A stretch of DNA of 64,000 nt, from NCBI GenBank assembly GCA_020152595.1, contig JAIGNY010002845.1, forward strand, positions 631,001-695,000, written 5' to 3'. The DNA comes from Chiridota heheva. Taxonomy: Eukaryota; Echinodermata; Holothuroidea; Apodida; Chiridotidae. Numbering within the stretch: position 1 is the first letter of the stretch; every line of letters starts with the position of its first letter. Position numbers and translations under genes: made by a program. The notes beneath the pieces were generated by a model that was not told the DNA's origin, ran no database searches, and saw only the letters and a list, made by a program, of their open reading frames with translations. Shown one piece after another: positions 37,701 to 61,896 of the stretch.

Positions 37701-40284
37701 AAGTGCCCCAATGGATGCCATTTCAAGTAAAGTGTGGCATATAGTTATTACTATAGTGTGTTTATCATTTAAAAATGATTTGTTTATTAAATCAAAATGT
37801 TAACAGTGTGGTTTACTTCTGTGATAAAGTGGAATTATGTCCCTTTAAGATTTTGTGCTTGCCATAGACACAGTGGTGCTATTTGATTTCCTGTTTTGTA
37901 AGCCCCGTCCATGCCTAATTAATTATGTATGCTACATTGCTGGCCATTGTTTCAGGTTGAAGATTTTTTTACTATTCTTCATGAGAATTAAGTACTTTGG
38001 TTTAATCTGGTTGTTTTAAAAGAATATTTATTCTTCAAGGCTCTCATTTTGTTCACAGAGTAGTTTATTATCTCTGATATTATATATATACATATATTTT
38101 TTTTTTTTTTTTTTTTTGGGGGTAATTATAAGGCTTTGTATCCCTGATTAATGATATCTAACTGCGATTGGTATTCATACACCCGGTGACAAGGCACCTA
38201 GCGTGGTTAGTGTTTTTCTCCAATGTCGATGATCTTTGCACTCTTTTGGTCATTGAACTTGATTGTTAGAGCACGCAGTGATTTCAAAGTTAAAATTACC
38301 TTAAGAAGAGGAGGCTTTATTCGTTTATTATTGTGATTTCTGTTAGCTGGTGAGTCAAATATTGTTTAACAATCATGTCACTAATGTAAATGCTATATAT
38401 TCTGTAATCGATAGTACTTAAATTGACTTGGTAATAAATTATATACCAGTTGCACGAATGTTTAACGATCTTGACTTTGTCTGATAATTCTGCCAATTTT
38501 GGACTTTGTTAGCTTAGAGATGATTATCGATGTTAATCACATTCTTTGTGTAATATCTAGTTACAATTGTGAAATGCTTACTGTTGATGTATTAATAATT
38601 TGGAAGTATAATTTACGTAAGAAGTGCATGTATTTGCATAGTGATATTAATATCAAGCATGACAAGGTAGCTTTGATCAGCTGTGACCCTGCTGAAGAAT
38701 TTTTGTTTAATTAGGGGGTACTTTCATTTTAGTAAAGGGTAAAGGTTCATTCATTCTGAATGCATTGTTTACTTTGTTAGTTTCTAACGTTAGAGGTTTT
38801 GGATTTGTTAGGAATCTGAGCTCGGTATATTGTTATGTATATTTTTCTCTTGGTATTTTGATGAATATGGAGAAGCGTTTACTGAATGTTTTCCATATCA
38901 GATATTGATTATCTGATCTATACAATTTTGGGCAATAAATCATTTCGTAGTGATGATTATGATTACTGTGTTTTGGGGACCTTATCACAACATTGCTCAT
39001 TTTCTGGAGTTGTGTTCAGTAATTAATGATTTTGATAATTAGAAGTATACTTTGTACTCCAAGTCAAGAATATATTTTAAGGAGTCAAGTGAGCACATTT
39101 TTAGATGTTGTTTGTATTCATTTTTTAGGAAGTGTTCAGAGGGTAATCCACCTGTCCATCGCGGGGTATGACATTCTTTCTTCTGGATTGTTGGACGGTA
39201 AGTGAAGGATGTAAACCAGATGGGGAATTAATTATATATGTAACACAAGAAATATTTAAAGATATATTGTCATATATTTAAAAACATAAAAATAATACAT
39301 GAACAATTGTTTGGAAGAAACAGACGTGACACACCACGATATTGCATCAGCAATTTCGAAAGGTCATTGAATAATGCAAACCGCATCATAGCAAAGGACA
39401 GTATACAATGTATTTTGCCAAATATTTTATATATGCATTGGTAGTTTTTTGGCATATAAGAGATTTTTCTTTTGGTACTTAAAACAGAGCAGTGTAAATA
39501 AGCATATAAACCATCAATGAGTTCATCAATGTTTTAGAGATTTACCAAAGACACACAGACGAGGGGAACTCCAGGACTTCCAAGTTTGAAAAAGAGTAGA
39601 ACGCATGGCACCATCTTTGGTGCCAATTTTCCACTGATGCCAGGTCGCCCTTACAACATTGTTTCCTGTAACTTTAGCAACCAAACAAAAATTCCAACAT
39701 AGGCTACTCATCATGTTTTTTAGTTGGTTCACAATATTAGGGAAATGAAATTTTAATTATTAAAGAGTAATACAGTGCATCAAAGGTAAACCCTAAATAT
39801 AGTGTGTATTAATAATATTACTACCATGAAAATTCATCAAAATAAATATTGGGTCGTTGTTGATCCTAAAAAAGTGAACTTATATAGATGAAGTAGACAA
39901 CAGCAGGAGGCAAATCATTAATTGAAATTTTACTTCATGGATAGCTAGGGATATTTATGCATGTAATTAATCAAATTATAATTTGTATTGTTTATGTCCA
40001 AATAAATATTATCATAGTTATAGAGAGACATTTGATAGTATTTTGAAGCTAAAATAATGTAGGTAACCACGTAAGTACAATTGCATAATTTTGAAAAGTT
40101 GTATTGGTACTATTTCATCACAAACTTAAATGAAAGTTCAACTATGCATGTGTTGAGAGTTTCCGAATGATCTTGCTTTAAACTTGTAACCAACACAAAA
40201 TTTAAACCTTTTCTGGCAATGTGGCTCATTTGTAATTTTTTTAAGTCAGCATTTTTCAATTTTTGTTGTTGTTGCTGGGAACAG
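34786..40284. other. Large gene-poor stretch
   Basis: No coding sequence is recognised in 5.5 kb. Small features: a direct repeat of CATGAGAATAGTAAAGTGTA (35402 and about 35450, 48 bp apart); a perfect 14-bp inverted repeat AGGGCCGTAGCTAG / CTAGCTACGGCCCT at 35668-35719; a G run at 36070-36105; a T run at 38098-38118. Upstream exons of the gene starting at 40285 may lie here but were not identified. Confidence 0.6.
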
Positions 40285-40544
40285 GAACATATAAGATGCG
40301 AACCTATCTGACAGGTTTGCTGTTCCACGGGGGCAAGTTCACAGCCACACTGGATGTTGGAGAATATTCAAGCGACTCTAACAAAACTATTGCAGTTTTG
40401 TTAAAAGCTTTGGAGATAGAAGTCTCGCAAAAACCATTACCACCCAACCTTCTACTCCAAATGGATAATTGCTGGAAGGAAAGCAAGAATCAATATGTGT
40501 TTGCTTTCCTGAGCTACTTAGTGAAGATGGATATCTTTCAAGAG
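40285..40544 (+). CDS. DUF7869-like gene, exon with MDNCWKE
   Basis: The acceptor is TTGCTGGGAACAG and the donor GAG|GTAAGC (phase 0). It encodes YKMRTYLTGLLFHGG, YSSDSNKTIAVLLKALEIEV and LLLQMDNCWKESKNQYVFAF. The DNC followed by E/K and N residues is the most conserved block of the family. The open frame itself is intact. Confidence 0.8.
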
Positions 40545-42101
40545 GTAAGCTCTATGCAAATATGACAATGATTATTATTGTCAGTTTCATTAAGAAAAAG
40601 ATTTTGTATAATATATGACACTTTAAGGGCTCATGTAATTTTATTTATTATTTTGATCAAATTTGGACATAGTACTACTGTTACTCAACAATGGACCAAA
40701 AATTATGTTATTACCTCCGCCAACTGAGTTGTGGAGAGGTTATGTTTTCTCCTCCATTTGTTTATTTCTTTGTTTCTGACGGCTGGATTTGGATCAAACT
40801 TGGTGTATGGTTTTGAAAGAAGTGAATAAAATTGAGGATATATTGGAGCAGGGGAAGGGTGCAAATGGAGGATGGGATCTTTAGGGTAAAGTCTGTCAAG
40901 ACAATTCAAACTCTTCAATAGAATGTGGGGAACAATTAATTTATACCATGAAAAGAAATCCAACAATTAATTTTCTGGACTCAAAATATCAAGCGGTCTT
41001 CGGAATCAAAGAAAATAAAACGTTTGGTTTTTGCCATGAATGGAAAATGATGGAATGTGAATCTTGAATGAATAGTAGAGCTATGAACGTTTAGGACATT
41101 TAGTTAGGGTGTACACGCCAAAAAAAGCGAGCGTGTATCGTTTAGCACCGTAAATTTCGGAAATACACCAAAATTGCACCAAATTTGCGATGCGAAGTAA
41201 ACAAAAAATCGCGCAACCAGTATGGCAAAAGTATTGACTCCAATGGCCGAATAGACGCTCGAATTTTGCTTTTCAAATCGTAAAAAGTTTACTTCTACAG
41301 TATAAATCATCATTTTTATGGAAAATATTAATAGAAATTCAGTTTAAAAAAACAGATAACTTCCTTTCATTGTCATTTAAACTGAACATTTCAAAACCAC
41401 GCCACCACCCTAAAAGTTCTAAGAATCAGTCCACTCGAAAAAATGGCCATCTTTGCGAAGCACCTAAAATTTCAGTTGTCAAAACCTTTTTATGTTTGTT
41501 CCACTTTTTGAGGGACCCTTTATTTACACATTTTCCACTTGTTGTACTCCGCTAAGTATAATTTACTTAAATAGATAACATTAATAAATCTTTCTATTTT
41601 GCTGAAATCTTAATTGTTGGCTTTGATACTACAGCACAGGAACGAGTAGTGATATTGTCGTGAGCATCCAAATCTAACACTGCTCAAAAGCTGCCGCTAT
41701 CACCTTCAACATCTAGCAGAATTCCCACTAAATCATGCATGTATCTTTTTTCCTCAAACAAAGGCCCTCCTACTAGCTCAAAACTGCACACATATGTGTG
41801 CTCTCTAGCCATTGTACCATTTATCTTACAGTTTTGACTTAAAATTAGTTCTCACTGACATGCACAAACTAAAATGGGAAACCCTTATACATCCTGATTC
41901 TCAAAACTATTCTATCCATTTTGTAGCAAAAGTATTATCTTTTTCTGTATTCCTATTCATATGGGAATCGCAGGCAAAAACAAGATCTCACCCTGCCGCA
42001 AACCTCTCTGTATTCTCCCGACTTCCATTCTCAAGCCCTATGCTGCATGAAATGCCTTTTAACACTGAACATACATTCTAAATAAATTTTGTTTACAACA
42101 G

Positions 42102-42320
42102 ATTACTGCGTCCTTCCCCATGGTTGGCCATACTCATGAGGATATAGACCACCGCTTCAGCAAATTCTCCCAGCAGTTGGTCAGTGAGGCTGCAGCAACC
42201 ATCCCAGAGTTGTTAGAGGTTTTGGAGAACTGAATTACTCCACAGCCTGATAATCCGCCTGAAGGAGTGCTGGGACGTTTCCATGTGGTTAAAACTAGTT
42301 ATTACACCAATGCATAACCA
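42102..42320 (+). pseudogene. DUF7869-like gene, exon with VGHTHEDID
   Basis: The acceptor TTTGTTTACAACAG leads in phase 0 into ITASFPMVGHTHEDIDHRFS and QQLVSEAAATIPELLEVLEN, followed by a TGA at 42231-42233. In-frame sequence after the stop (PPEGVLGRFHVVKTSYYT) still looks like the same protein. The downstream donor was not located. Confidence 0.75.
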
Positions 42321-43337
42321 CTCTAAAGCTAATTAGTACAGGTTAGTTTCATATTTTTTATAACAAAACTCGATTTTTACACATGATGCTGGCATCAATG
42401 TCTGGTTAAAGTTTTTGGAAGAGTTTCCTTGTTTGCTGTTGGTGAAAATTTTTGGAGGAGTTTGTTATAGTAAAGACATTCCAGACATAAATAATACCAA
42501 TTGAAATATTTGTCTTGACATATAAAATCTCAGAAAACATTACTCACCTCCAAGCCAAAAGAATTTGAAATTAAGTGTATAATGTATAAAAAGAAATGTA
42601 AACAAGGTTTTTAGATGAGTTTCTTTGTTATGATGAATAGCAATTGAATTATTGAATACAGCATGAGACTTCAATAGAAGTTCAAATTAAGTGTCTTGGG
42701 ATACAATAAGTGGAATGTTGCGTAGAAGATGACAGGATGATAAGTAGCTGTACCGTAGTGTGGGATGGCATTTGTGACAGAAATTAGGATGGCATATAGG
42801 ACAGGTTGGAAGGTGCTTTATAATTAGTGAGTAAATTTGTATCATTGACAGTTTATAGTTGGACATACATTAAGCAATATTGTTACGCTTAGATTTGCTT
42901 AAATGTTGTTTTATGCACTTGTCAGTTTTATGACTCACCCTACTACACCTGGCAATGTCAGTCAAAGGTGAGTCATTGACATATGAAATAGTGACTCTCA
43001 TGTGCATCACACCACAAGGTTTGCAGGGGTCGCTTGGAAAGGGTAAGGGCTGTATTATATAATTGAAATAATAGACAATTTTTTCCACTTTAAAGACTGG
43101 TTAACGATGACTAGATGGTAGTTTGGTAGGTAAATTGCATCATGCCACAAGGATGTTTGGTAATATTTTCACCTTCGATTAACAAGCCAGGGCCTCCCCT
43201 GTCTTTGTAGTTCAATGGATACGACTAAAAGAGGTGTGTTCAGTTATAGCAAGTGCTAGTTGTAAAATTTGTTATAATCAAGCAAAGCAAAAATCTATTT
43301 TTCCTTCTTTTTTTTGTAACTTGTGAAATATATTTGA
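42321..43337. other. Intronic sequence, no feature recognised
   Basis: AT-rich sequence between two exons of the DUF7869-like gene. No repeat or exon could be delimited. Confidence 0.55.
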
Positions 43338-43945
43338 TAAGCAGCTGCAAGAGCAAATCGGATGCTTGGTTTAAATAGAAGATTTTTTTTCTTTTTTGCT
43401 AGAGAGGTTGTTCTTAATTTGTATAAGCACTTAGTCAGGCCTCACCTTAAGTATGCTATTCAGGCTTAGAGTCCCTTTTATGAGAAAGATAAGGTCATTT
43501 TGGAGCAGGTCCAGTGAAGAGCCACTAGAATTATTCCTGATATTCCTAAAGTAAGGAAGCTCTCTTTTGAATCTAGGTTACGAATTCTTAGTTTGACCAC
43601 GCTTGAGTTGAGAAGAGTACGTGGCGATATGATTTAGGTTTTTGAATTCCAATCTGATAGACAGTGATAGTGATGCTTTCACTTGCATGTTTCAGCTAAT
43701 CCTCATTTTGGCGGATAGATATTCAGCAATTTAGCTTTTCGAAAAAAGTGGTTAATAAGTGGATTGGTTTGCCTGAGTAAGTGGTTAGCTCCAATTCTGT
43801 TCACAATTTCAAAGTCAACAGTGATAAGTTCTTTATTAAATCTGGGCGTCTTTGATTTTTGTGAGGTGGTGGTGGTGCTTTTTGGCTTTTTATGGGGTGA
43901 TTAGGCTTCTCAGCCCATCATCTTGTTATGTTATGTTATATGCAA
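43338..43945 (+). mobile_element. CR1-like LINE, 3' fragment
   Basis: Degenerate translation matches the C-terminus of a CR1-type reverse transcriptase ORF: AAARANRMLGLNRRF, LYKHLVRPHLKYAIQA, LEQVQ followed by a stop and RATRIIPDI, RLRILSLTTLELRRVRGDMI and a VVSSNSVHNFKV region. The stretch ends with a TGTTATGTTATGTTAT tail at about 43,925-43,945. It lies in an intron of the DUF7869-like gene in the same orientation. It is 5'-truncated and has several stops. Confidence 0.85.
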
Positions 43946-43992
43946 ATGTGCCAGAAATGAAACATAATTAGTAATCAAATGTCACCAATTAC

Positions 43993-44215
43993 AGATTAAT
44001 GTTGAGGCAGAGTGTTTATTTGTAAATATAATGCATGGGAAAAGGACTTTGGCCCTAGGAAAATGAACCGACTTCATAATCTTCAGCAAGTGTAAAGTCC
44101 TTTGAATCATGAATTAAATATGCATATAAACACAATGCCAAAATACTAATCTTTGGTATAACATTTGTGGGTTAGATTGTTTAAAATGAATAAAAAAAAA
44201 GAATGAAAAAGGAAA
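43993..44215. repeat. Interspersed repeat R2, copy 2
   Basis: Diverged copy of 19566-19750 in the same orientation, sharing AGATTAATGTTGAGGCAGAG, AAAGTCCTTTGAATCATGAA and TTAGATTGTTTAAAATG. It sits just upstream of the 44257 exon. Confidence 0.75.
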
Positions 44216-44256
44216 ATCAAGATAACAAATTTGGATAATTCATTTCTACATTTCAG

Positions 44257-44665
44257 GTTCATAAATGAAAATGGCCATATACACATGTTATATAAATTGT
44301 GGTCAGTAGATGAACATTGGCTGCCTGCAGCTGGCTCACCACCAATCAGGATTTTTGAGAAAGCTCCCAATGGTCAAGACCTCGTACCCGAAAAGGTGCC
44401 AGTAAAGGTTGTGCCACATCTGGATCCGGGTCACCTGAAATTTCTGGATGAGAGTGTGAAGAAGTCCAAGGATTGTTGTTCTTATGAAGTGATGGAGTGG
44501 TGGGAGCAGTTCATTACAACCCCTTTTGATATCAGTGAAGCTGCATAGCCACTTAATACTTCACGGACCTATAAGGAACTTCCCCCTGAGGTACCTTACC
44601 CTCAAAATGGAAATGTTCTTCAAACAGTGCAGCAATTGATGGAGAAAGAGAGGAGCTGTGCCGAG
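44257..44665 (+). pseudogene. DUF7869-like gene, C-terminal-region exon
   Basis: The acceptor CTACATTTCAG precedes FINENGHIHMLYKLWSVDEH and LDESVKKSKDCCSYEVMEWW. A TAG interrupts at 44546-44548. The frame then resumes with PLNTSRTYKELPPEVPYPQN and ends at a GAG|GTAAGT donor in phase 0. Confidence 0.7.
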
Positions 44666-45397
44666 GTAAGTCTATTTAATAGAGACGAGGTTTTAATTCC
44701 TTCTGCAGATAGTGGCAGTTTGTTAAATTCACAGTTTCCCATTTTCTCTTCATTAGCTAAAAATTATGTAAACTTTGTTGCTGAAATAAAAGTAAAGCAA
44801 CAAATTACAAAATATAACATTAAAAAAATATATACCTTTTGCATCTCATGTCCAAGCTTGGGGTAAAATATCAAAAAGCAGGGCAGAAATGTATAAAAAA
44901 AGTGTATTTGTATATGCTGAGAATCATGACTTCCTTATTTCTTGAAGCCCATTTGTCCAATATATAAAATGGAATGCTGGCACCTATTCACTATACAGGC
45001 CTCTAAAGTTGCATAATTTGATATACAAAGAAGGCATACATTGTGTTTTGAATAATATTGCCTTAAATTAAATAATCATAGCAACTTTAGTATAACAACT
45101 TAGTACAAGATCTTCAAAAAGCTGTTAAATGGGAAAATTATGAACCGATTTTGATCAAATCTGGTGCTTTCTTTGTTTTATTGGATTTTAATTTAGTTTA
45201 TCTACAATTCAATACACCTCTAACATCATATCAAAAATGACTGAAAGTAGCAAAAAATTATAATTAAACTTGGTTGCATATTGACCAATGACCATTCTAC
45301 AGTTTTTCGATTTTTTAGATTTCAATATGCAATTTATATTTATGTATTACTACAGTTTCTTCACCATTCGTCTGTCAGTCCAACCATTTTATTGTTC

Positions 45398-45567
45398 ACC
45401 CGACCATATGCAATGTCAGTTTTACCACAAGCATTGTCCGTCACACCATATGCATGGTCTGTCACACCACATGCATGGTCTGTCACACCACATGCATGGT
45501 CTGTCACACCACATGCATGGTCTGTCACACCACATGCATGGTCTGTCACACCACATGCATTGTTTGG
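45398..45567. repeat. 21-bp tandem repeat, about 8 copies
   Basis: Units of CATGGTCTGTCACACCACATG. The five central copies are nearly identical and the outer ones are diverged. Because 21 is a multiple of three and the unit lacks stops, several frames stay open (a repeating HHMHGLS on plus, CGVTDHA on minus). It lies in the last intron of the DUF7869-like gene, so the open frames are probably accidental. Confidence 0.9.
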
Positions 45568-46027
45568 GAACAAATACTCCTGTCCTTGTAAGGAATTCCA
45601 ACTATTTGTGTGTAGTGATTGCATGGAAATTGAGGGGAGATTTGCTTCCTAAGAACTTACAAATAATGCATGAATTTCTTACATGAATGGCAATAAAATA
45701 TTATTTTATATTTAGAGCTGACACCGCAAAAAAAGTGTAAATTAGTGTAGCAATATAAACACATTCACAAATTAATCTGCAATGAATCATAATTCTGAAT
45801 TGAAAGATAAATTATCCCATGTGTGGTTTATGAAGGGAAATATTTTAAATTAAGGGTTATGTTTGTTAATCATTAATTATCTGGAACTAATGAGGAGGGA
45901 AATTGAGGTAATGAAGTGAGTGAAGATTGAATTGAAGGTTGGAATGATGAGTTCTTTAAGAGTACATTTGGTAGATGACTTGATGGCAAAATGTGGGTAA
46001 GGGTGGGTCCAGTCAGACAGTGAATCC

Positions 46028-46235
46028 TCATTCTAAGTTCTTCATTATTGAACTCTGAAGTTTTGAATTCTTTTCCTGTGCAAATATAACCTTCACCCCT
46101 TCTTTGTTTAGTACTTGAGTCAGTTTCTCACCCTTACCATTTAGGAAAGGGGCCACTCTGCCATTTTCCACAACATAAAGTTCAATTTTAGCGCTAGAGG
46201 CATTATACACTTCCACTGCTCTCCCAAGAATATTT
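46028..46235 (-). repeat. 208-bp inverted repeat, left arm
   Basis: The reverse complement of this arm matches 46815-47022 at all but two of 208 positions by eye. The arms are 579 bp apart. The arm carries a 68-codon open frame ending MKNLE and a stop, identical in both arms apart from about one residue. The spacer holds degenerate ATGGCATGTGGGA-like words. Confidence 0.93.
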
Positions 46236-46742
46236 ACAGAGGGATGGTCTGTGAATGGAGGATGATTGGAGCATGGTATGCGAATGGAGGATGGCAATTG
46301 AAGTGGGATGGTTGGCAAATGGGAAATGATAGGTGAATGTGGTATGTTAGGCTGATGGCATGTGGGACAGGGTATCATGGCTTGTAGGACAGGTCGGCAT
46401 TACATATGGGACATGGCGAAACGGTGGGATGATATTGGAACAGCAGTGACATGTTTGGTACAGTAGGTTGGCATAGCACGTAAGACATTGTGGCATAGTA
46501 CGCAAGATTGCATGTGGTAGGATGTCATGTGGATTCAGATGTGATGGCATGTGGGGTTGGATTTAATGGTACATATTATACATTTTGAGCAAATAAATGA
46601 AGGAATAAGGCAAAGTTAGCCAGCGAGAACTATAGGTTTAACTTTTTTGATTAATTTCACATTGAGTAATTATGTTTATGATATTTGATTAATTTTGAAC
46701 AAACTTGTTTTGATTTGTACAAATATACACTGGAACCCTCAG

Positions 46743-46847
46743 GAAGAAGAAGCAAGCAAAAGCCAATGGAAACTCACTACTTGGTACAAAGGGAAAGATG
46801 TACTTATGTACAAAAAATATTCTTGGGAGAGCAGTGGAAGTGTATAA
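46743..46847 (+). CDS. DUF7869-like gene, candidate last exon
   Basis: A phase-0 acceptor (GGAACCCTCAG) opens a frame reading EEEASKSQWKLTTWYKGKDV and LMYKKYSWESSGSV, ending in TAA. Phase and spacing fit exon 44257-44665. The overlapping frame 46798-47022 lies in the 208-bp inverted repeat and is an alternative reading. Confidence 0.55.
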   Translation, partial: EEEASKSQWKLTTWYKGKDVLMYKKYSWESSGSV

Positions 46848-47022
46848 TGCCTCTAGCGCTAAAATTGAACTTTATGTTGTGGAAAATGGCAGAGTGGCCC
46901 CTTTCCTAAATGGTAAGGGTGAGAAACTGACTCAAGTACTAAACAAAGAAGGGGTGAAGGTCATATTTGCACAGGAAAAGAATTCAAAACTTCCGAGTTC
47001 AATAATGAAGAACTTAGAATGA
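46815..47022 (+). repeat. 208-bp inverted repeat, right arm
   Basis: Partner of 46028-46235. It begins AAATATTCTTGGGAGAGCAG and ends at the TGA of an open frame. Its start overlaps the candidate last exon of the DUF7869-like gene (46743-46847), so the left arm looks like an inverted copy of this gene end. Confidence 0.93.
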
Positions 47023-47394
47023 TAGTAGAACCTTAGTTTTAGTGGTGGACATGTGATAGAGGGAAAAGACAAGCATAACTGAAAAAATGTGTTGATATTT
47101 TGTTCAAATATGGAGATTCTTTTAAATGATTACGGTAAAAGCCTGAAAAGAGTGACAAAACAGCTAAATGTTTTTTAGTTAAAACTCATATTTCAAGAGT
47201 TAGACTATATGATTAATTATTACAAGATTTCTTCAATCTCAAAATCTCATTTTATAAACTGCTTGGAACTTTCTAAATATCCAATGGTTATCTTTCTAAA
47301 GATAAAATTGAATACCCTTTTTCAGAGTCTCACATTTAAAGATAAATAGGTTTTATTTGGGATCTTCTGTGAAGGATTGAATCTTGGTAGAGTT

Positions 47395-50265
47395 TTTTCC
47401 ACGGCGCAAATTGACGCCTTCCAGAGTTCAAAACTTGCGTAGCGCAATTTACGCTCTTTCAGAGTGTAACATTTTATAGTACATAATAGAGGAAGATAGA
47501 TTAACTTCTGTTTGGAAACTTTTGTGAAGGATTTAATCTTGATGCTTTCTGGGGGTGCAAATTTATACTCTTTCAGAGTTTAACATTTACATGGCGTAAA
47601 TTTACGTTGTTTCCAGCTTTTAAAATCTTAATATTTGTATTTTATCATATGATTTATTATTTTACTTATAGTTTTATTTGGAAACTTATGAAAGATTGAA
47701 TCCTGGTACTATTTATAGCTTAGATTTTTGCTCTTTTAGAGTAATATTTACATGGCGCAAATTTACATTTTTTTAGTCTAACATCTACATGTATATAAAG
47801 ATAGAATAAGTTTTATTTGGGATCTTCTGTGAAGGATTGAATCTTGGTACTTGAAATGGCGTAAATTTGCGCTCTTTTAAGGTAATATGTACATGGTACG
47901 CTTTTCATAGAGCAAGATAGATTAGGCTCTATTTGGAAACTTTTGTGAAGGATTGAATCTCGGTTCTTTGAATGGCGTAAATTTACGCTCTTTTACAATA
48001 ATGGGTACATGGCGAAAATGTACGCTCTTTCAGATTAATATGTACATGGCGCAAATTTACGCTCTTTCAGTCTTACATTTACATGTATGTATACAGATAG
48101 AATCAGTTTTATGTTAAATCTTCTGGATTTGGAACATTCTGAGAAGGATTGAATCTTAATGCTTTCTAGGGGCGCAAATTTATAATTTTTCACAGTTTAA
48201 TATTTACATAGCGTAAATTTACGCTCTTTCCTGCTTTCAAAATCTTAATATTTTTTTTTTACATAGAGCAAGAAAGATAAAGTTCTATTTGGAAACTTGT
48301 GAAATATCGAATCCTGCTACTTTCTATGGCGTAAAATTAGGCTCTTTCAGAGTAATATTTACATGGCGCAAATTTACGCTTTTTCAGAGTCTAACATTTA
48401 CATGTATATAAAGATAAAATGAGTTTTACTTGGAATCTTCTGTGAAGGATTGAATCTTGGTACAGTTTTTTCCAGGGCGCAAATTTACGCCGTCCAGAGT
48501 TCAAAACTTACATGGTGCAAATTTACGCTTTTTCAGAGTGTAACATTTATAGTACATAGTAGAGAAAGATAGATTAAGCTCTGTTTGGAAACGTTTGTGA
48601 AGGATTGAATCTTGGTACTTGGAATGGCGTAAATTTGCGCTCTTTTAGGGTAATATGTACATGGCGCAAATTTACGCTTTTTCAGAGTGTATCATTTATA
48701 GTACATAGTAGAGAAAGATAGATTAAGCTCTGTTTGGAAACGTTTGTGAAGGATTGAATCTTGGTACTTGGAATGGCGTAAATTTGCGCTCTTTTAGGGT
48801 AATATGCACATGGTACGCTTTTTATAGAGCAAAATAGATTAGGCTCTATTGAAAACTTTTGTAAAGGATTGAATCTCAGTTCTTTGTATGGCGTAAATTT
48901 ACGCTCTTTTACAATAATAGGTACATGGCGAAAATTTACGCTCTTTCAGATTAATATGTACATGGCGCAAATTTACGCTCTTTCAGTCTTACATTTACAT
49001 GTATGTATACAGATAGAATCAGTTTTATGTGAAATCTTCTGGATTTGAAACATTCTGAGAAGGACTGAATTTCAATGCTTTTTAGGGGCGCAAATTTATG
49101 CTTTTTTACACTTTAATATTTACATGGCGTAAATTTACGCTCTTTCCTGCTTTTAGAATCTTAATATTTTTTTATCATAGAGCAAGAAAGATGAAGTTCT
49201 ATTTGGAAATTTGTGAAATATCGAATCCTGCTACTTTCTATGGCGTAAATTTAGGCTCTTTCAGAGTAATATTTACATGGCGCAAATTTACGCTTTTTCA
49301 GAGTCTAACATTTACATGTATATAAAGGTAGAATAAGTTTTATTTGGAATCTTCTGTGAAGGATTGAATCTTGGTACAGTTTTTTCCAGGGCGCAAATTT
49401 ACGCCGTCCAGAGTTCAAAACTTACATGGCGCAAATGTACGCTTTTTCAGAGTGTAACATTTATAGTACATAGTAGAGAAAGATAGATTAAGCTCTGTTT
49501 GGAAACTTTTGTGAAGGATTGAATGTTGGTACTTGGAATGGCGTAAATTTGCGCTCTTTTAGGGTATATGTAAATGGCGCAAATTTACGCTTTTTCAGAG
49601 TCTAACATTTAAAGATAGAATAGGTTTTATTTGGGATTGAATCTTGGTACAGGTCATTCCAGGGCGCAAATTTACGCTCTTCCAGAGTTAAATACTTGCG
49701 CAAATTTACGCTTTTTCGCAGTGCAATATTAATGGTTAATATGTCATAAAAGAAGATAGATTAAGCTCTATTTGGAAACTTGTGAATGATTGAATCTTGG
49801 TACTTTCTATGGCGTAAATTTACGCTTTTTTAGAGTGCAACATTTATAGTACAATATATCATAGAACAAGATAGAATAAGTTCGATTCTATTGCATTGCC
49901 CTGGTTCGATTAGAAACTTATGTGAAAGATTGAATCTTGGTAAGTCCTACAGCTGAATTTAAAGCTCTTTCAGAGTTTAATATTTATAAGGCGTAAATTT
50001 ACGCTGTTTCCAATTTTCAGATTCTTCATATTTTTATCATAGAGGAAGATATATCAAGTTTTATTGAAGCTTTTGTGAAGGCTTAAATCTTGGTACTTTC
50101 TATGGCGTTAATTTACGCTCTTTTCAGAGTAATATTTACATGGCGCAAATTTACGCTTTTTCAGTCTAAAATTTACATGTGTTTAAAGATAGAATAATTT
50201 TTATTTGGGCCGTCTGTGAAGGATTGAATCTTGTTGTTTTTTCCGTAAATTTATGCTTTTGTAAA
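47395..50265. repeat. Array of ~35 palindromic GCGYAAATTTACGC motifs, higher-order repeat
   Basis: About 35 copies of a 14-mer related to GCGTAAATTTACGC, a perfect palindrome, or to GCGCAAATTTACGC. They are spaced roughly 35-120 bases apart over 2.9 kb. Most are preceded by ATG and followed by TCTTTCAGAGT or TTTTTCAGAGT. Between them recur TGTGAAGGATTGAATCTTGG, ACATTTACATGTATATAAAG and GATAGATTAAGCTCTGTTTG. A block of about 916 bp is repeated (48071 matches 48987; 47956 matches about 48871), and a 146-bp block near 48541 is duplicated again. No open frame of note exists. It ends about 0.9 kb from the Polinton remnant. Confidence 0.93.
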
Positions 50266-50399
50266 TAATTTTATTCAAGGTGTCTTATTCATTTAACATG
50301 AAATGCTGTATTCAGAAGGAGTGAATAATAAGTTGAAAGAAAGTAAAGCAGTTGCGCTTATTCTGTCTTTATCATTGTCATGTGTAATGAAAAAATCCT

Positions 50400-50645
50400 T
50401 TGTTTTAAATCCACAAGAAAAATGATAGTGTCATTTTGAAAGGAACTGTCCATTTACCTTTCAAAACTGATAAGAAGCAATTCATTGAATAATGAGCATA
50501 CCCCAGGATGCAGCGGATAATATGTAAACTTTTCAAATTCACAAAAAAGATGATGTCATTTTTAAAGAACCAGTCCCTTTACCTTTCAAAGAAAATCTTG
50601 GAATAATGAGAAGCATTCCCCAAGATACAGTAGATCGTATGCAAA
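50400..50645 (+). repeat. ~130-bp tandem duplication with coding-like conservation
   Basis: Bases ~50400-50526 and ~50534-50643 are diverged direct copies. In one frame the first reads DSVILKGTVHLPFK and the second DDVIFKEPVPLPFKENLGIM followed by RSIPQDTVDRMQKV. The first copy then runs into stops. The similarity at protein level hints at an exon duplicated in tandem, but no family is recognised. Confidence 0.5.
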
Positions 50646-51166
50646 AAGTAGGACTTTTTTTTTCATTTTTGTGGAATTTTGACACTCGGAGAAAGGGCCA
50701 AGTTCTAAGCCACCCCGTTACCTATTTTTTGTGCTGCAGGTATCACATCACTTATTTTCATACTGCAGGTATTAAAATCATAAACTGTCATACTGCAGTT
50801 ACCAAAAAAATATCTCATACTGTAGACCAAATTTGGGCGGCACATACCTACCACTTTAGTATTGAAGTTCCCTCCTCCCACCTCCCCTCCACACCCCGGG
50901 CTGTTTACCAAGAACAAAAGCGGTGCATATGTATTTTAACCTTTTCGTTATTACTCTTAGACATTTAGAGAAAGTGCGGGGAGAAAATGCCATTTCATTC
51001 AAAGCCCGTTTAACTTCCTTTGTAGTGTGATTCCCAGTTCATCGATATATAAAATCTACACTACAACTGGCTATCAGTTTACGACTTGAAAGAATGACAT
51101 GGTTCGGGTAAAATGAAAAAAAAAAAGGCTTACGCAAACGTGATATTTTACAATTACTTTACATAA
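50646..51166. other. Left flank of the Polinton, no feature recognised
   Basis: Between the tandem duplication and the end of the polymerase gene. I found no inverted copy of the repeats at 63.3-63.95 kb, so the left terminal inverted repeat of the Polinton seems to be missing. Confidence 0.5.
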
Positions 51167-54100
51167 TTATAAATACGGAAGGTAATAATAATTATTAGCT
51201 CTTAGCGCATCGACCTTAAATAAACAAACTGTTTTCGCGTTCGTTATATAAAAATTCTTGACTTTTAAAGAGGGAAACATTTTGTAGGCGTAGTTCTTTG
51301 GACCTCCCGATACGAATTCGGTGATGTAACTCCCGACACCGTAAGCTTTCTCGAGCTCATCAGTCATGTTGCCCAGAAAGTTTCCGACGGGTGGTTGCCA
51401 ATCTCCGGGTCGATGGACGTGGACGATGGAATCGGTGTCAAAGTAAACCACGCGTTCCCCTAGTTTTTCCAGATAGCTGTAAAGTTTGAGGCGGGCGTGG
51501 GCCGTGGTATAAGCTGCATTGAATATGTTGGTGTTAGGTGACACTTCAATATACTCATCGGTGTCGACCCACTGGATTCTGGCGGTAAAGTTATCGTTAA
51601 ACTGCACATATTTCACTTCTTTGGATTTGTTCATCAGCAATTTGTTAAACTTTTCCAGGGTGTTGACAAACTCTGTCTTGGTGAGTGTGTTGCGTTGACC
51701 AAACTTTCACCAGAAGGACTTCAACATCAGTTTAGCCAAGGCACGCTATCCCTTGTTTTTTTCGATGTTTTGTGGGTCGAGATGGATACTTTCGCGAGAT
51801 TCGAAATCGTTGATGTACTGGCGACGTTGCTCTTCGGTGTCGCATCCTGGAGGCCATCCACTCGCTTCTTGTTTTAGTTTCAGGAACGTATTGATATAAG
51901 CCGTGAAGAAACCTGCTGCTCCGGTTGAGGGATCGTAACGTACCGTTTGGTTAAAATACCACACTTCTTCAAAATGTATAACGCGATACTCCATCTCTAC
52001 AGCTTTCTGCAACTCACAGCTCACCCAAGTTCCACGGAGAGCGCGTTGATCTTCGTGGTGTTTGCATGGCCCTTTGGCTAGTGTTTCTGCGCAGGTGGCT
52101 CATAGTGGGAACAAGAGTTTTCCTTGACATCGGTACGGGAGCACGGGGTGGTACAGACCACGAGGAGGTAGGACGGTGCATTTGATCAGTCCTCCATAGT
52201 CACTCACATTGGTCGTGTTTGGGGTCTTGATTATATTGGGATGGCAAATAGGATACTTGCAGTATTTTTTGACCCACGGGTAGAGTGAGCAGACATCGAT
52301 GTATTTGATTTTATTATCGTCTGCAGCCACATGGTGCAGTTTAATGGCATTGGTGCGTCCTCTGAAGAAAGCGTCCTTTGGTTGCAGAGGTGATGTTAGT
52401 TTCAGGTTATCGATGAAGTTTTTCATCAACGGATTCCTCGCCAGTTTATCTCGGAACTGGCATTCCCAAATCTCCACTAATTGCCAGCCCTGACGACGAC
52501 CTTCATTAATCGACCACTCTCGTCGTCGGTTGAGCCTAATGAGAGCATCCTCGACGATTGTTTCGATACTTGGCAGTTTCTGATCTTTTCTTGGGTAGCA
52601 GGTTTGACAACCATGCCACAAACAACCGTAGAACTCGAAGGCGGTCTTTGACGCTTCATCCGAGCCGTCAACTTTGTAAGACCCTATGTGTTTTTCTCCT
52701 CCTCCTCCACGAGACCGAGCATGCTGGATGCGTCGACCGTCTCCGTGCTCCAACCATTTCAACCATTAGGAGCTTTGACGGACTGGGTGTCATTATTGTA
52801 ACCACGATGAGGAACCAGAGCGATCGTATTAGGACGTAGGAATTTTCGTCGAAACATCCGCATACAGGCCATAGAGATAATGATGCATTTTTCGAAAAAT
52901 TCTCTCCTGTGGTCTCCAAAAACTCTGTTTTGAATCGCAAACATCCTCGACAAAGCAGTTCTACGTCGCTGCAGCAGTACTCGTACATTTCTCGAGCCAT
53001 GTCAAAAATCTTGGCCTTCTGTTTTTCATATTAGACGAGAAAATCTTTGCATTGAGCAGGTTTCATGTGATCGGGATTAAAGGTATCAACTGCAGGCCAT
53101 GGACCGACGTAATTTTTCATTAGCTCTGGTGTTAAAAAAGGACGGAAAATATCCCTTTTTAATCTCTGTCAATCCGAAGGTCTTGGGAAAGGATGAGAGC
53201 GGAGCCGGAATGAAGTTGCACGAGTCAACGATCCTCAAGGTTCATCACGACATTGGGACACATTCCGATGTTGTTTATGTGGGCGAAAATGAAATGGCCA
53301 TCGTATCCTTTCATGTTAGGTGCAATAGCCGTGGCTCCTTTGTTCTCTGGAGAAAGTAACCAAGGACAATAGTCTTTTTCAGTATTTCTTCCTGAAAAGA
53401 GGTGTTCTCGCGCCATGCATGTAACTACCGTCGTTGAGGTTATCTTCTTAAATGCATTCGAAATCGAAGAAAATGTATTTCATCGGAAGGGTCTCTTCTT
53501 CCCACTGTACCTCGTTTTCCAGACCGAGAATAAGTAAAGCCTCTTCGTCATCAATTTCAACGTATCCTCCTGCTTCTTCTCTATTCTCAATCACTTGCAT
53601 ATAGCAAAGATGGTCGTTTGGTTGGTAACTTTGGCAGTTTCGACAGTAACGGTGACCACGTTTGTGTTGATCCGTAACAGTGGTACCACAAGTAGGGCAA
53701 CGACGGATGCGTTGACAGATCGTACGTGGTGTTGTTTTGGTTTTAGGTTTGATGGTGACATTGCTCTTTTTCGGGATCTTCTTGTGATTAGCAAAACATG
53801 TCGGACAGTTGAACGATTGGTCGCAATCTTTACAATGTATCCATTCAATCAATTGGCATTCTTCCTTCCCTGCATTGAAACAGCACTAGCAGATGTTACG
53901 GCAACGGTGGTGGTCGAAATCTTTGTATCCTTTGAGGTAGCGATCGCAAAAGTTGGCCACATCGAATTAACCCGGTATTAAAGTAAGAATGTCAAAATGA
54001 GCATCGTGGTAGAGTAGATAAACTTGTTTCTCACGAGGTGGCCCTCGGAACACAAACAAGTCGTGGGGATTCGTCGTAAGGACGTTCACTTGGTAGTCAG

Positions 54101-55231
54101 GCAACACGGCTTGGAATTGGTTGACTTCGTCTAACCCACAAGGTCCAAGCGCCACGCCAGTTTGTGCGTGTAACTCTCTGGCGAGTCTCGTTTGCTTACA
54201 TTTACCATAACGAGTGTTCTCCCAGTTAACAGTACAATCTGTCTCTTTATTGATGCCAACTTTGGCGGTCACGAGGGCTCGGGCTAAACAGAGGTGGTCG
54301 TTTTTCGTAATGCGGATGATGGATCGTTTTCTTTGAGTCCATTCTTTTATGTTACTGCGTCCACTTCTCCGAGGCATTTTGATGTGGAGGACTCGGATTT
54401 CAACATTGCCGTCGAGTACGAAAGCGGTCTTGGATTGTAGTACTTGGGCGATCGCAGATAGGATACGTTGAACACTTACTTGATCTCTCCGCATGAGTTG
54501 AATCCATATCGGGTTGTCTAACGCCGGTGCGGGAATTTCAAACCCACACGATCGTGTGCTGCAAAGCCTTGGACCAGTCGTTCGATAAAACTTTCGAAAA
54601 TGGCGTGTAAGGCAATGACGACGTCTCCCTCTCTATTGACTAGTTGGGCAATTCTCTCCCAGTCAAAACGAATCACATGTTCGTTGGCTTCAGAATGGTA
54701 CCTTTAAATCTGACGTCTTCGAGCTTCGGCAATGTGATAGCAGCTCTCAGCAGTGACTTCCTTGTCCCCCACTTCGTTACCTTCTACGTCCATACTCTGC
54801 AACTTGTCCTGTCCTTCTCGGACCCCCTCACGATCTTCAACGTTGCCACCCATTCCTGCTTGCTCTCCGACATTGTACTGTTGTACCAAGTGGTCGACGA
54901 ATTGGTCGGGTTCCTGAGGCAATTGAACCCCACTTCGAGCCACCATGTCGCTCAGTCCGTCGGTGTTTGGTTGATATTCTTGCGAATCGACGTCCCATTC
55001 TTCCATGTCCATTTGCTCTTCGTAGTTTGGTTCATCGATATTCCACCTCTTTGTATCCATTTGCACCTCATAATTGGGCGACGCCAAAAACAAATCATTG
55101 TCCTCAGGATCAGGCTCATAGTCCACCACCCCTGCTGTTCTCCTAAACGACGATTGGTCTCTGTCCTTATAGTGAGTCATGGTAATCAAAACACGCAGTA
55201 TGCACACAATACACCACAGTAAGTATAACAC
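51167..55231 (-). pseudogene. Protein-primed DNA polymerase B of the Polinton, disrupted
   Basis: Replicates the element from a protein primer in intact copies. On the minus strand: an acidic N-terminal region (55231-54704); a conserved N-terminal domain (54494-53967); cysteine-rich zinc ribbons and the exonuclease motif with FFDFEC (53852-53448); a second exonuclease motif with MKGYDGHF (about 53,300); a third with YCCSDVELL (about 52,970); EFYGCLWHGC; polymerase motif A with DVCSLYPW (about 52,295); motif B region; and motif C with YFDTDSI (about 51,480). From 52762 to 51167 the frame is constant but holds stops at 52100-52102, 51746-51748 and 51707-51709, the last inside motif B. Further frameshifts lie near 54,680, 54,530, 53,430, 52,900 and 52,755, with other in-frame stops at 53967 and about 53,880. 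The extreme C-terminus appears to be lost. Confidence 0.92.
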
Positions 55232-57523
55232 GAAATGTCAACACATTATATTTCAATAATACGTCGTAGTTGTTAGCGTAGCTGACGAACGCTATGAATG
55301 ATAAAACAAAATCTTCACCCCGCTTTTAAATGTTCAGTCTTGAATGACATTCAATACTATTGCCATATATGGTCATCACACCACTATTAAGTGACCAATC
55401 AGATGGATTGAAAATGATGTTACGTATGTTCTGGACCAATACCATTATTTAATATTCGTCTTTCATGTCTGATCCCATGGTAACAGACATCAAGGACATT
55501 TAAACAAAGGATCTATATTGATCCAATGAATACACATGAATTATGAATCATTTTTTTTTCTCATACTATTGATATCGATTTGCCATGCAAACATCTTCAC
55601 TGATACCCCATTGTTATATCATCACATTTTGACCATCCTATCATTAAACACGCATTGTGTACAGAAATGATGTATCGATCGGTTCTCTTTGTCAAACACA
55701 AGGACATTTAAACAAAGGATCTATAGTAAATCCAATAAACACACATGGATTATGAATTTTTTTCTTCTTATACTGTTAATATCGATTTGCCACGCAAACA
55801 CATCTTCACAGATAAACAAAGGATCTATATTGATCCAATAAACACACATGGATTATGTATGTTTTTTTTCTCATACTATTAATATCGATTTGCCACGCAA
55901 ATATCTTCACAGATAATTTTTCTCCATTATTATCTTTGACCACTCTTATTAAACACGCATTATGTACAGAAATGATGTATCGATTGGCTCTACTAACCCC
56001 CACTATTAAACATCATATAATCAAGGCTATAACACAAACAATACGTATGATGTGCATTACATGGATCGACTGTATATTCTACATTGAACAAGGCCCGTGA
56101 CGATAACTCAGTCAAATTGCGCTCGGTTTCTTCGAAAGTTAGTTCATGTCCTCAAATGACCCCAGAAGCAGCACCGATTAACGGCAGTTGGAACATTCTA
56201 AGCATTTAAATAAACTCGTGCGGAAACTCGATAGGTGGACCTATTGATTTACCCGGAAGACTGTTATGTATTCTCGACACTTGTCATGTTTGAGACCAAC
56301 GTTTTGAAAATAGGTAAGATTTAAGCGGGGATATTTTTTTAAACGGTGTAATATGAGCAGACATTTTATTAAACGTGAACGATTTAAGAACGAAATTTTA
56401 TTTTCAATTCCCATTGACTTTGCACAGGGAGCAAAATTTAAACGACAATATTTTTTAAACGGTGTAATGTAAACAGATATTTTTTTCTGACGCTCCTCAT
56501 TTGAGAAACAATTTTTTTTTATGAAACTCATCATTTGAGAAACAATTTTTATGAAACACTGTCATTTAAGGCTGTTTTCTATTTTAGCGGGACAAAGTGA
56601 GTTTTACTGGGGAATAACGTAAAATATGATAGCTATCTAACTTCAAATTGTTTGAGCGCTATGATTACACCATACGTAAGTACTCAATGTATGTAAACAA
56701 CCAATACTCCAGTCAGCTCTATCGATCGACATTCAGATAACAAAGGGCGTAGTACTTTTGCCCACTGGAAAGATACCATGCGTAGATCTCACTTTTGAAA
56801 TGTAATTTTAAAGGGAAAAGAGCAGGGAGAGGATGTATCTATTTCTAAATAAGAAAAGGGGTGGGGTGTGATTTTATTTCTTAGGGGAAAATGGCAGGGA
56901 GGATGCATGTATTTCTAAACGAGAAAAGAGGTGGGGTATGAATTCATTTCTAAGGAGAAAAGGGCACGGAGGATGCATGTTTTTCTAAACGAGAAAGAGT
57001 GTGGGGAGGGGGTTGGGGGTTGGAGGGTAAAGGGTATCGTTTAAAAATGGAATAAGCGGGGAAATACTTTAAAAAAAAGGAGGTAAACAAGATACAAGAC
57101 ACACGTTGACACATCAAACCTGCCTTTTTTCCAATTTATTGATATAGCATTTTCGTCAGAAAATAAGTTGCAGGGAAAGGACGTCCGCATAATAGCACTG
57201 TACAGGACATAATACGCCAGAAAATAACACGCAAGTTATATGGCGCTAAAAAACATCACTAATCAAACAATGAATATTCAAAATGAAATTTTAAAAGTAA
57301 CAAATGTGCAAACAAAATTAACATCAGCAGTTTGCGGGATCCGGTTTACCCTTATTTAACACTTATAAGTTTGCGATACAGCGCCCTCTTTTTTCGACGA
57401 TTCACTACTTTAGTTGGAGTTTGTCGTTACGACGAGGAGACGGGGTTACCCGTTCCGACTCCAGTCACTTCGGATGCTTATCGTCTTTAAAAAGTAATCT
57501 GTAGTAGTTTATTGGCGTTTAAT
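55232..57523. other. Non-coding spacer of the Polinton with tandem repeats
   Basis: No gene is recognised between polymerase and protease. A repeat of AAACAAAGGATCTATATTGA with an ATATCGATTTGCCACGCAAA segment occurs at about 55499, 55707 and 55806; two copies continue into a matching AACACGCATT(A/G)TGTACAGAA block, giving a ~208-bp unit. Bases 56330-56480 hold two copies of a TTTTTTAAACGGTGTAAT word. Bases 56810-57000 hold three ~68-bp copies of a GAGGATGCATGTATTTCTAA unit. Confidence 0.75.
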
Positions 57524-57991
57524 TTATAGTCTTTTGTAATGACGTCGTATTAATGTACGCACGTCCTCGTCGTTACGTTCCACATCCTCTCCAAACCGTG
57601 CCGTGATGATATCCATGGGTTGTCTTTGCGCTCGGTGTATCAAATAGTAAATGCAGCAGTGGCCACACACGTCTAATCCCGGGCTCTGAAGCGGCTTGCG
57701 ATTCTAAATTACCGGTTTCCTCTTTAGATAATTTCGTATAGCAGGAACATTAGGCAATTCACCATAAGGATCGAAAAACTCCCAGGGTCCTCGTTCGGGA
57801 ATGTAAGTGGCAATCCAATGCCGGCCCGGTTTCCAGCTCGGATCCGTGTTGATTACCAATGCGGTCGGGCGATGAAAAAGCTCGTGTAATTGATCGGCCG
57901 CGTGAACGCCACTGTACACGTCGCACGTTAACCAGCGTGTGAATGCATCGGAATTCAAGAGATGTATAAGGTCAGACGTTTTCATGACCAA
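57524..57991 (-). pseudogene. Adenain-like cysteine protease of the Polinton, with a premature stop
   Basis: Ulp1/adenovirus-type protease that matures capsid proteins in related viruses. The minus-strand frame from 57991 contains PGRHWIATYI with the catalytic His and WEFFDPYG with the acidic residue of the triad. A TAG at 57704-57706 interrupts. The same frame then continues for 59 codons with a Gln in a PLQSPG context and CGHCC, where the oxyanion Gln and nucleophilic Cys are expected, to a TAA at 57524. So one in-frame stop separates the two halves of the active site. The start overlaps the capsid gene end by about ten bases. Confidence 0.9.
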
Positions 57992-59316
57992 TTGGTAAAG
58001 TCATAGAGAATGTTACGGTTTTTATCGATTTCGACGATGTTGTCAAATTCAACGTAGATGAAGAGGTTCGTGGTAGTCGGTAGTACGGTTCCAAACTTTA
58101 GATCTAGACGTAAGTTGCCTCTTTTTTTGACTGAATAATGCTGTCCATGAGATCCATCAGGTATCAGAGCGAACGCAAACATTGTGTAACCGTCGAGAAA
58201 GTCAGACGGCGTAATATCCATACCCCCATCGCTATACAAACGACCTGTGGCCGAAAACAACTGAAGGTAACTGCGTAGGGTCTGGTGTGAGCCAAAGTTG
58301 GGGGTGAGCGGTGTGGCAGAATACTGTTTCTCGTCGACATGTAAGGTCAAGTAGTTCAGGTTAAATCCTTGGAAACGAAATCGGTTTTTGGTGTAATCGC
58401 CGTTGAATGCAGACGTGTCCACCAGACAGAGCACTACCCGTTTAGGTAGTTCACCCAAAACACTTCGTCCCGTTGCAAATTCTGGGTGCCCATCGGGATG
58501 GCGATATTGCGGAGGACGGTGCGTCGAATATTGTACTCGGCTGGTTCTTGGTTGAGCATAGCGATGTTGTTTAACACGTGGGTGTTGCTACACGTCATCT
58601 TTCGCATGTACAGGATGGCGTCCAAAATTTGTACTCGAAAATTGGCATTTTCAGCTCCTGATATCAAGCAAAATGGGTCTTTGGTGCGATGTAATTTCAG
58701 TCGTACTTCCGCCGGATAAGAACACGTTGCTCTGTGCAAAGATGTCAGCATGAGTCGGGCCTTTCATTTCGAAGACTTTGCTTCCTTTGGTATTAATGAA
58801 ACGATGTTTCAAGCCTGTATTAGGAATGACTTCAGCCGTCAAGTTGTAAAAATCCATGTGACCGGCGGTTTCCTTAAAATACATTTGCGATTGGAGGTAG
58901 GTGTCTTTGGCCTCTTTGTCATAGTTGAGCAGCGTTTCAATCATCGCTCTGTACGGATACGTGGGTGTGGAGTCACTGATGAGTTTGCCGTTGAGAGACA
59001 CGTCCACTTGAGAAAACATCGAATGCAACAATTGCTTAACGGGGGCCACTTTTTCGTCGTTGACGGTCGCGTCGCAGTTTGTCCCATCTGCGTTCGTAAT
59101 CTTGAATTTGAGATACACTTGGTTGTTGTAGATGTCAATGTACTTGGTTCCGGTTCCGGGAATGACGAATTCGATAGGTCCTGTGACGTTCAAACCTCCA
59201 AACGGACGGTATTCGACGTACTCGCTGTCTTCGATAACCATCTGCGTTGGCGGCACGGTAAACAATTCCATTTCGGATTTGGAGCACGGTAAAGAGTGAG
59301 CGTAAACGAGAGCCAT
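57982..59316 (-). pseudogene. Major capsid protein (double jelly-roll) of the Polinton, two frameshifts
   Basis: Forms the hexons of the predicted virion. The likely start is the Met at 59316 (MALVYAHSLPCSKSEMELF), with an in-frame Met at 59343 as the alternative. The N-terminal part (to ~58,700) includes EYVEYRPFGGLNVTGPIEF and YIDIYNNQVYLKFKI, typical of the family. The frame changes near 58,700, continues with VRLKLHRTKDPFCLIS and ends near 58,434. A third frame (58458-57982) carries LPKRVVLCLVDTSAFNGDYT and LTLHVDEKQYSATPL. Total coding length is about 444 codons, close to the usual 450-550. Residue conservation in all three frames shows recent loss of the frame. Confidence 0.92.
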
Positions 59317-59372
59317 GTTGACGGTTCCGTAGACAAATGACAAATGTGTATTGACCCAAAGTGTTTTTCTTC

Positions 59373-59792
59373 TTATTTCTGGGGTTGGACGTAAAACGAC
59401 GGTCGTTGACGTAAATACTGTTTCAAACGAGCATCAGTAAAGGGATTCTTCGGCTTTGTTATCTTGGCTGTTCGCTGACGAAGTGGCTTCCTTGCACCAG
59501 TACCAAGCTGTTGCAATCGCGCTTTAGCGCGACCCATGGCTTTGCGTGTCAAACGTCGTCCAGCCGCTTTCGCTCGACGGGTTTCAGCTAGTTTCACGCT
59601 TTGTCCGGCCAACACGTCTTCCAGAATTCCTGCATCAGTGGTCAACCCTTCTTTACCGACTTCTTTTGCCAAGCTTGCAGCACCCCGTTTCACAAACGGT
59701 AATGCTGCCCTAAATAGTCCCAAAAGCATTCCTCCGAGACCGTAGCCTTGTTGATTTCCAGGTCCTGCAAGCACGGGTAAAGGTCCTGCCAT
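59373..59792 (-). CDS. pX-like basic virion core protein of the Polinton, intact
   Basis: A complete 139-codon frame between the capsid and penton-like genes. The N-terminal quarter is glycine-rich and hydrophobic (GYGLGGMLLGLFRAALPFVK, about residues 16-35). The rest is strongly basic, with many Arg and Lys (RRAKAAGRRLTRKAMGRAK; RKPLRQRTAKITKPK). The layout resembles adenovirus core protein pX and the pX-like proteins described in adintoviruses and Polintons, thought to bind packaged DNA or membranes. Assignment rests on composition, order and the short hydrophobic motif. Confidence 0.75.
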   Translation of the reverse strand: MAGPLPVLAGPGNQQGYGLGGMLLGLFRAALPFVKRGAASLAKEVGKEGLTTDAGILEDVLAGQSVKLAETRRAKAAGRRLTRKAMGRAKARLQQLGTGARKPLRQRTAKITKPKNPFTDARLKQYLRQRPSFYVQPQK

Positions 59793-59846
59793 GATATTAT
59801 CTAATGTGTAAATGAGAATTGATGCGCAGTCTACACAATTATATAG

Positions 59847-60574: not shown

Positions 60575-60616
60575 GACGATGACGTTTACGTTAATGAAGG
60601 TTTTGACTGTCACACA

Positions 60617-61018: not shown

Positions 61019-61370
61019 GATGAATCACACGTCCTCTACAACAAGCGCTGATGTATGTCATGTTTTGTAGAAAATTGCTCAAAGTCGCTAAATAAGCTGA
61101 TATGTTTGCCATGACGGCTATTTTATTACTAAATAGGAAGGATGGGAGTGATTGAATTCATCAGCTCTTAGGGTACTGTAACCACCGGTCCTTTTGTTTA
61201 TAAGGGTCTCTGCGTCGAGTATGTGTCATGAAAGATGTGCGTGGTTCCAACGTTTGGTCGTCGTCGTCTTCCCGGGACCCCTTGCGCATTGCCACGGGAA
61301 GGATGTCTTCACCTTCTACTGGGTGGCCATCGTCAAATTTTTCTGTACGTTGAAAACGTTGAAGTCGATC

Positions 61371-61817: not shown

Positions 61818-61896
61818 CTTGGTCTTTTCCAGCGTTTCAAACAGCTGCGTTTGGCGCGTTAACGCATCTGGTTGACAACCTTTATCTTCTTCACGA

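Follow-up and report, generated by a model that had tools for sequence, protein, structure and literature searches.

An array of near-palindromic 14-mers in Chiridota heheva forms the right subterminal part of a dispersed, TA-bordered DNA transposon family

Transposons with repeated sites in their ends

Galileo, a Foldback-like element of the P superfamily in Drosophila, has long repetitive terminal inverted repeats in which several sites for its transposase (THAP) lie in tandem repeats. The published passage on these sites proposes that they give specificity and offset length, and for Galileo-G it describes a first site ~70 bp from the tip, with two others in four repeats (PMC3688188). Tetris of Drosophila virilis is described as having terminal inverted repeats with internal tandem repeats of ~220 bp, which expand into satellite-like arrays (PMC4079207). 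Concerning the CACTA elements, the subterminal repeats of En/Spm are reported to be bound by TNPA (PMC2613891), while the soybean element Tgmt*, according to its description, measures 20.5 kb and has a large spliced gene and asymmetric subterminal repeats (PMC8978399). Additionally, piggyBac is described as having identical palindromes of 19 bp in its ends, to which two C-terminal domains bind (PMC11707139).

The window analyzed here is a stretch of 64,000 nucleotides of C. heheva DNA. At 47404..50256 (+ strand) it contains an array of 33 sites of GCGYAAATTTACGC / GCGTAAATTTRCGC with at most two mismatches, which constitutes the right subterminal part of a dispersed, TA-bordered family of DNA transposons. 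The family resembles Galileo, as presented in the passage mentioned above, in having several sites within repetitive terminal inverted repeats, but it differs in having tens of near-palindromic sites that start more than 300 bp from the tips, a TA border and DUF7869, with no THAP match in the frames scanned. It also differs from Tetris, which is non-autonomous and for which the published passage names no short palindrome, in that both ends share the 14-mer while having different spacers. Membership of the CACTA group, as described in the sources above, was rejected, since the tips here read ACGGGG (ACGGGGTGG) and not CACTA and are bordered by TA and not by a 3-bp target duplication. The elements piggyBac and piggyBat have few sites near their tips and a TTAA target, and membership of piggyBac was likewise rejected, as the borders here are mostly TA in varied sequence (e.g., ACATA/ACGG, CGT/TATATG) and not TTAA. 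With tips and borders unlike those of CACTA and piggyBac, and with no Galileo-type transposase in the part scanned, the family may work like these systems but is not classed with them. In size it falls in the class of the giant eukaryotic transposons described in PMC6431247.

The array unit, the ends and the whole copies

A preliminary description of this DNA had counted about 35 self-complementary motifs. The array is real, but perfectly self-complementary sites are a minority of its 33: exact copies in the window amount to 6 of GCGTAAATTTACGC (the perfect palindrome), 11 of GCGCAAATTTACGC, 4 of GCGTAAATTTGCGC and none of GCGCAAATTTGCGC. Counted over both strands, the motif gives 65 matches in the window, whereas 100 shuffles that preserve dinucleotides gave 1.00 on average (sd 1.36) and never more than 5. 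The ~916-bp higher-order repeat proposed in the same description was borne out, with three copies on the + strand at 47553..48476, 48470..49390 and 49384..50244; with the second copy as the query, the first matches at 87% and the third at 74%. Recurrent spacings of the 14-mer, in the genome stretches with arrays, are 32, 39, 47, 103-108 and 138 bp. The CpG ratio is 1.06 in the array, 0.42 in the array minus its cores (masked bases being kept in the length; ~0.35 without them) and 0.82 in the window, and 60 of the 78 CpGs of the array fall in cores. Elsewhere the window holds a (TA)n microsatellite at 1251-1974 (362 units, 99% matches) and an ORF of a rhodopsin-family receptor.

The genome (1.1 Gb, 3744 contigs) was searched with the 14-mer and with the array unit, as the preliminary description had proposed, and the array proved not to be a lone satellite. 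The exact 14-mer occurs 653 times in forward and 663 times in reverse orientation, while the reversed-sequence control gave 1 and 2. The 921-bp array unit has at least 192 matches (best 40 of 81 candidates), on at least 35 contigs among the matches listed; these genome counts are lower bounds because the best candidates alone were scored. Among the 27 stretches (26 contigs) first examined, 25 have 6-41 sites, and C189 and C735 have one each. Five exact spellings of the 14-mer had no match in a literature text search, a 22-bp pattern had none in viral contigs, a distant-match search of the array against phage records found nothing, and Rfam at gathering thresholds gave no match in the whole window.

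On the + strand, the element interior adjoining the array (46241..47390; 91% to C3513, L013) is followed by the array itself, by a right subterminal stretch at 50257..50599 and by the right terminal inverted repeat at 50600..50718, whose tip, ...GGCCACCCCGT, ends at 50718; the TA directly outside it (50719..50720) is the presumed target dinucleotide. Among the matches listed, the flanks of the array are common to different loci, and at the right ends the homology ends at this one tip amid different surroundings. The subterminal stretch was matched beside 16 of the 24 right-array stretches, the window's own included, and the terminal repeat was found in 12 of the 24, at 307-580 bp beyond the last core. 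Measured from the right tips, the arrays begin ~310-580 bp inward. Four of the 12 stretches lacking the terminal repeat (C21, C182, C3649, and C3433) have at most 203 readable bases past the array. Eight of the 24 have no subterminal match, four of them with more than 600 readable bases; among the 12 that lack the terminal repeat, C401, C466, C3181 at 204154, and C3243 have a longer readable flank with no correctly placed subterminal match. By eye, TA adjoins 11 of 14 intact right tips, and the right tip of C1039 has TT outside. Among the matches listed, neither the window nor the preceding 6 kb contains the left end of this copy. Outside the window's tip the sequence is a short tandem repeat with the CTGCAGGTAT motif, 50720-51263 being repeated at 85% ~53 kb upstream (C2750:627075-627630; L044 2076-2631), and the window's transposon seems to have inserted into this tandem repeat. 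Further to the right of 50718, and outside the element, lies a block of ORFs (51167-61913 on the - strand, and 63482-63930) which we take to recall Polinton/Maverick genes; two of its ORFs gave weak unrelated or chromo matches in Pfam, and tandem repeats lie beyond it.

The terminal inverted repeats of the family are ~120 bp long (ACGGGGTGGCC...) and usually TA-bordered, and a left tip (L055) is alike to the window's right tip over ~120 bp. In C466, C3382 and C3232 a second type of array, with units of ~117 bp, is established beside the terminal repeat; this left array has the same 14-mer with mostly different spacers and is inverted relative to the right array. A left-end query of 401 bases was matched over at least 330 bases on at least 27 contigs, its own included (best 40 of 91 candidates). 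Ten further left ends were fetched and the 14-mer was present in all of them, in 7-34 copies in nine and as a single site in one, while the reversed motif, used as the control, was in none; the count of 23 sites for C1947 takes in right-type spacings, a right-type array being already known in the same stretch. Where the tip is intact, the first 14-mer lies ~335-360 bp from it. By eye, TA adjoins eight of the ten left tips, and the left and right units appear distantly related, each having, upstream of its core, a block that resembles GGATT..ATCTT..GTAC. Runs of (TA)n surround two of the ten left ends. The left ends of C3232 and C466 (L045 2055-2131, L042) show the left array, then a relic terminal repeat and then a right-type array, truncated and inverted, with the same junction in both. 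A 2-kb stretch of C3232 (401659-403630) could be taken for a small nested element, but this junction with the relic terminal repeat is common to the two contigs, and the stretch may therefore belong to the left end of the large element. Insertion of one element into another's array may have been the origin of the large copies.

Whole copies range widely in size. The one in C3382 spans 3.1 kb and consists of left repeat, left array, right array and right repeat, with TA on both sides and 35 sites. Those in C3232 (27.4 kb between tips) and C1860 (30.2 kb) are collinear, with BLAST pieces mostly of 82-95% identity, and have different flanks; in C1860, 701 bp of the left end contain 12 sites, and the part of the right array that was read contains 13. 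Left-type and right-type tips in matching orientation are also present in C1039 (31.7 kb) and C3123 (36.5 kb). TA is found at both tips in three of the four pairs read (C3382, C3232, and C1860), the tips of C3123 having AA and TA. C2179 and C3399 each contain two inverted right-type arrays with their tips, revealing that foldback forms occur. As in a DNA transposon, inverted repeats stand at both tips and copies lie at different sites with TA on both sides; long inverted repeats with internal tandem units, as in Foldback-like elements, were found in C2179, C3399 and C3382. Apart from these features, the window has at 34090-34361 a tRNA-Cys prediction and, after it, a sequence that recurs at 92-98% in C3382, C3232 and C1860, the two together being perhaps a tRNA-derived SINE.

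The gene beside the array and DUF7869

A spliced-looking gene appears to run up to the array on the + strand. Its last exon-like frame (46714..47022), which ends in a stop, recurs beside arrays in C3513, C3181, C2179, C3393, C3232 and C466, with stops inside the copies of C3181, C2179 and C3232. Five comparisons with the window gave dN/dS values of 0.29 (C3513), 0.37 (C3181), 0.27 (C2179), 0.48 (C3393) and 0.31 (C3232); these are values without a significance test, and the pieces compared can overlap (109 codons for a 102-codon exon in two cases). Upstream lie an exon-like frame with an acceptor-like border (44207..44548), of which 44240-44376 is common to C3232, and a 54-bp common block (42956..43009; 94% to C3232, 93% to C1860). 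Both parts of a DUF7869 match (PF25273) are located upstream of the last exon on the same strand, with splice-like borders by eye. The first (40287..40550), the genome's best DUF7869 match, is open and is then followed by a donor-like GTAAGC, and the second (42072..42251) has one TGA within the match. The gene region also contains a 21-bp minisatellite (45424-45560; 6.5 copies, 95% matches) and a 208-bp inverted repeat, 99% alike, between 46028-46235 and 46815-47022, which takes in part of the last exon and is a recent local inversion-duplication.

The DUF7869 exons would be part of such a gene in the window alone. The genome has 15 DUF7869 matches on 10 contigs, with none on C3232 and none on C1860, and around the DUF7869 gene of C1494 no palindrome was present in the 14.5 kb read, a stretch that ends at the contig start. 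Since DUF7869 stands with an array in the window only, that it is the transposase is something we infer. The Pfam scan covered the three + frames of window 40001-47400 and the three - frames of L071; these frames gave no THAP or P-type match and no tnp2/TNP1-type match, and those of L071 gave no Pfam match at all. Protein searches found no homologues of the last exon or of the DUF7869 exon, and a full-text literature search found no paper on DUF7869, a domain of unknown function. Two intronless DUF7869 relatives, L074 (C298) and L075 (C3350), have the motifs D-x-C-x-x-Q/E-N and GH[ST]xxxxD in common with the window exons. Modelling of the C298 relative with AlphaFold yielded too weak a structure (pLDDT 41.0, pTM 0.32), and although its predicted order of strands and helices may recall RNase H, we give this no weight at such a pLDDT; a search of PDB sequences with the same relative gave no match.

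Constraint on the 14-mer and its possible role

The core had been described as better kept than the spacers, which holds in the older comparisons but not in the young pair, and one spacer block is kept equally well. With gapped columns left out, higher-order copies 1 and 2 differ at 12 of 154 or 16 of 168 core positions and at 88 of 752 or 84 of 738 spacer positions (p 0.20 and 0.59), whereas in copies 1 and 3 and copies 2 and 3 the changed fraction is 0.09-0.18 in cores and 0.24-0.29 in spacers (p 3e-5 to 0.009). Between loci, where controls were chosen by the same rule as the core and the 7069 alignments are non-independent, the core difference is 0.131 and the control median 0.1745. Only four of 72 control rows (three distinct 14-mers) are lower than the core, and these three form one block, ATTGAATCTTGGTAC(WGTACTT), ending ~6-14 bp upstream of it. 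By divergence band, the core against the median of 42 controls gives 0.145 and 0.206, 0.133 and 0.171, 0.110 and 0.145, and, in the youngest band, where it is merely slightly under that median, 0.093 and 0.097. With a 91-bp spacer as the anchor, and up to 5 or 6 mismatches allowed, the core was recovered upstream at 120 of 160 positions and downstream at 125 of 135, the other 40 and 10 having 7 or more mismatches. When 647 sites of the two end types are pooled, a set chosen by the core itself, the core carries 1.61 bits of information per base and its two 60-base flanks carry 0.25 and 0.24. These comparisons support a constraint on the core, possibly as part of a composite site with ATTGAATCTTGGTAC, as does the presence of the same 14-mer in both ends of one transposon family.

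We consider it probable (about 0.7) that a protein encoded by the element binds the repeated 14-mer, in the manner of Galileo and CACTA. The preliminary description had suggested, as separate possibilities, an array that binds protein and a satellite spread by a mobile element, and the two would merge in this reading. The protein could be the transposase, for which the DUF7869-carrying gene of the window is the candidate, or a partner protein, and the near symmetry of the site suggests that this protein may bind as a dimer. With many sites in each end, the protein would reach a higher local concentration, and tips up to 30 kb apart might be joined more easily. The units would multiply by unequal exchange, leading to the ~916-bp higher-order repeat, and the spacers would drift while the 14-mer site and one spacer block are kept.

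The best of the rival explanations is a passive minisatellite within the transposon, which expanded by unequal exchange within the long inverted repeats and serves no function; the core would then look kept owing to its use in picking the sites and to a common ancestry of left and right units. Repeats of terminal inverted repeats can indeed expand into satellites, as described for Tetris (PMC4079207), and the distant resemblance of left and right units by eye, the spacer block that equals the core in conservation and the lack of a significant core advantage in the young copies of the window are all in line with it. We nevertheless hold it unlikely, since the core is found in every spacer type seen and at both ends, lies under the control median in all four divergence bands, even if slightly in the youngest, and is CpG-rich amid CpG-poor spacers.

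The 14-mer, near-palindromic and AT-centred with CpGs at its two edges, has a form that is usual for a dimeric factor. It could be a site for a host transcription or chromatin factor, carried by the transposon and acting on expression or on the persistence of the element. This is improbable, however, given that the motif is almost absent outside arrays (one of eight contigs, the single site of C189, among the first 100 matches listed) and that the array of the window is located 3' of the gene and not upstream.

Less probable still, to the point of being hardly credible, is that the unit acts as a splice acceptor or exon-like signal. Right-end cores are often followed by TCTTTC or TTTTTC and then CAG, and the preliminary description had likened every unit to a strong 3' splice site; in left-end units the core is the same but no pyrimidine-CAG comes after it, the commonest six bases 3' of the core being CAGAGA, TGAAGG and CAAAGA. 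The TCTTTCAG-like sequence noted after the core is likewise true of the right end but not general, as left-end cores differ there. Finally, an ordinary host satellite (e.g., centromeric), unrelated to transposition, has almost no chance of being correct, although the preliminary description had named an ordinary satellite without core constraint as one outcome that would do away with any special role: the array is tandem, AT-rich and present at many loci, yet it is a structured part of a transposon with common tips, terminal repeats and end-specific arrays.

Returning to the 14-mer as a binding site of the element's own protein, we put forward, tentatively and with more doubt than confidence, that the family represents an undescribed group of giant transposons (27-36 kb) which combine a DUF7869 transposase with tens of 14-mers per end as a docking platform. 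Such a multi-site platform would let tips 30 kb apart find each other. If this is true, the family would offer a natural series for relating the number of sites per end to element length and spread, because it has copies of 3 to ~30 kb and arrays of 1 to 41 sites. It would also tie DUF7869 to a mobile element in a directly testable way, and an unexplained minisatellite would become a recognizable transposon end.
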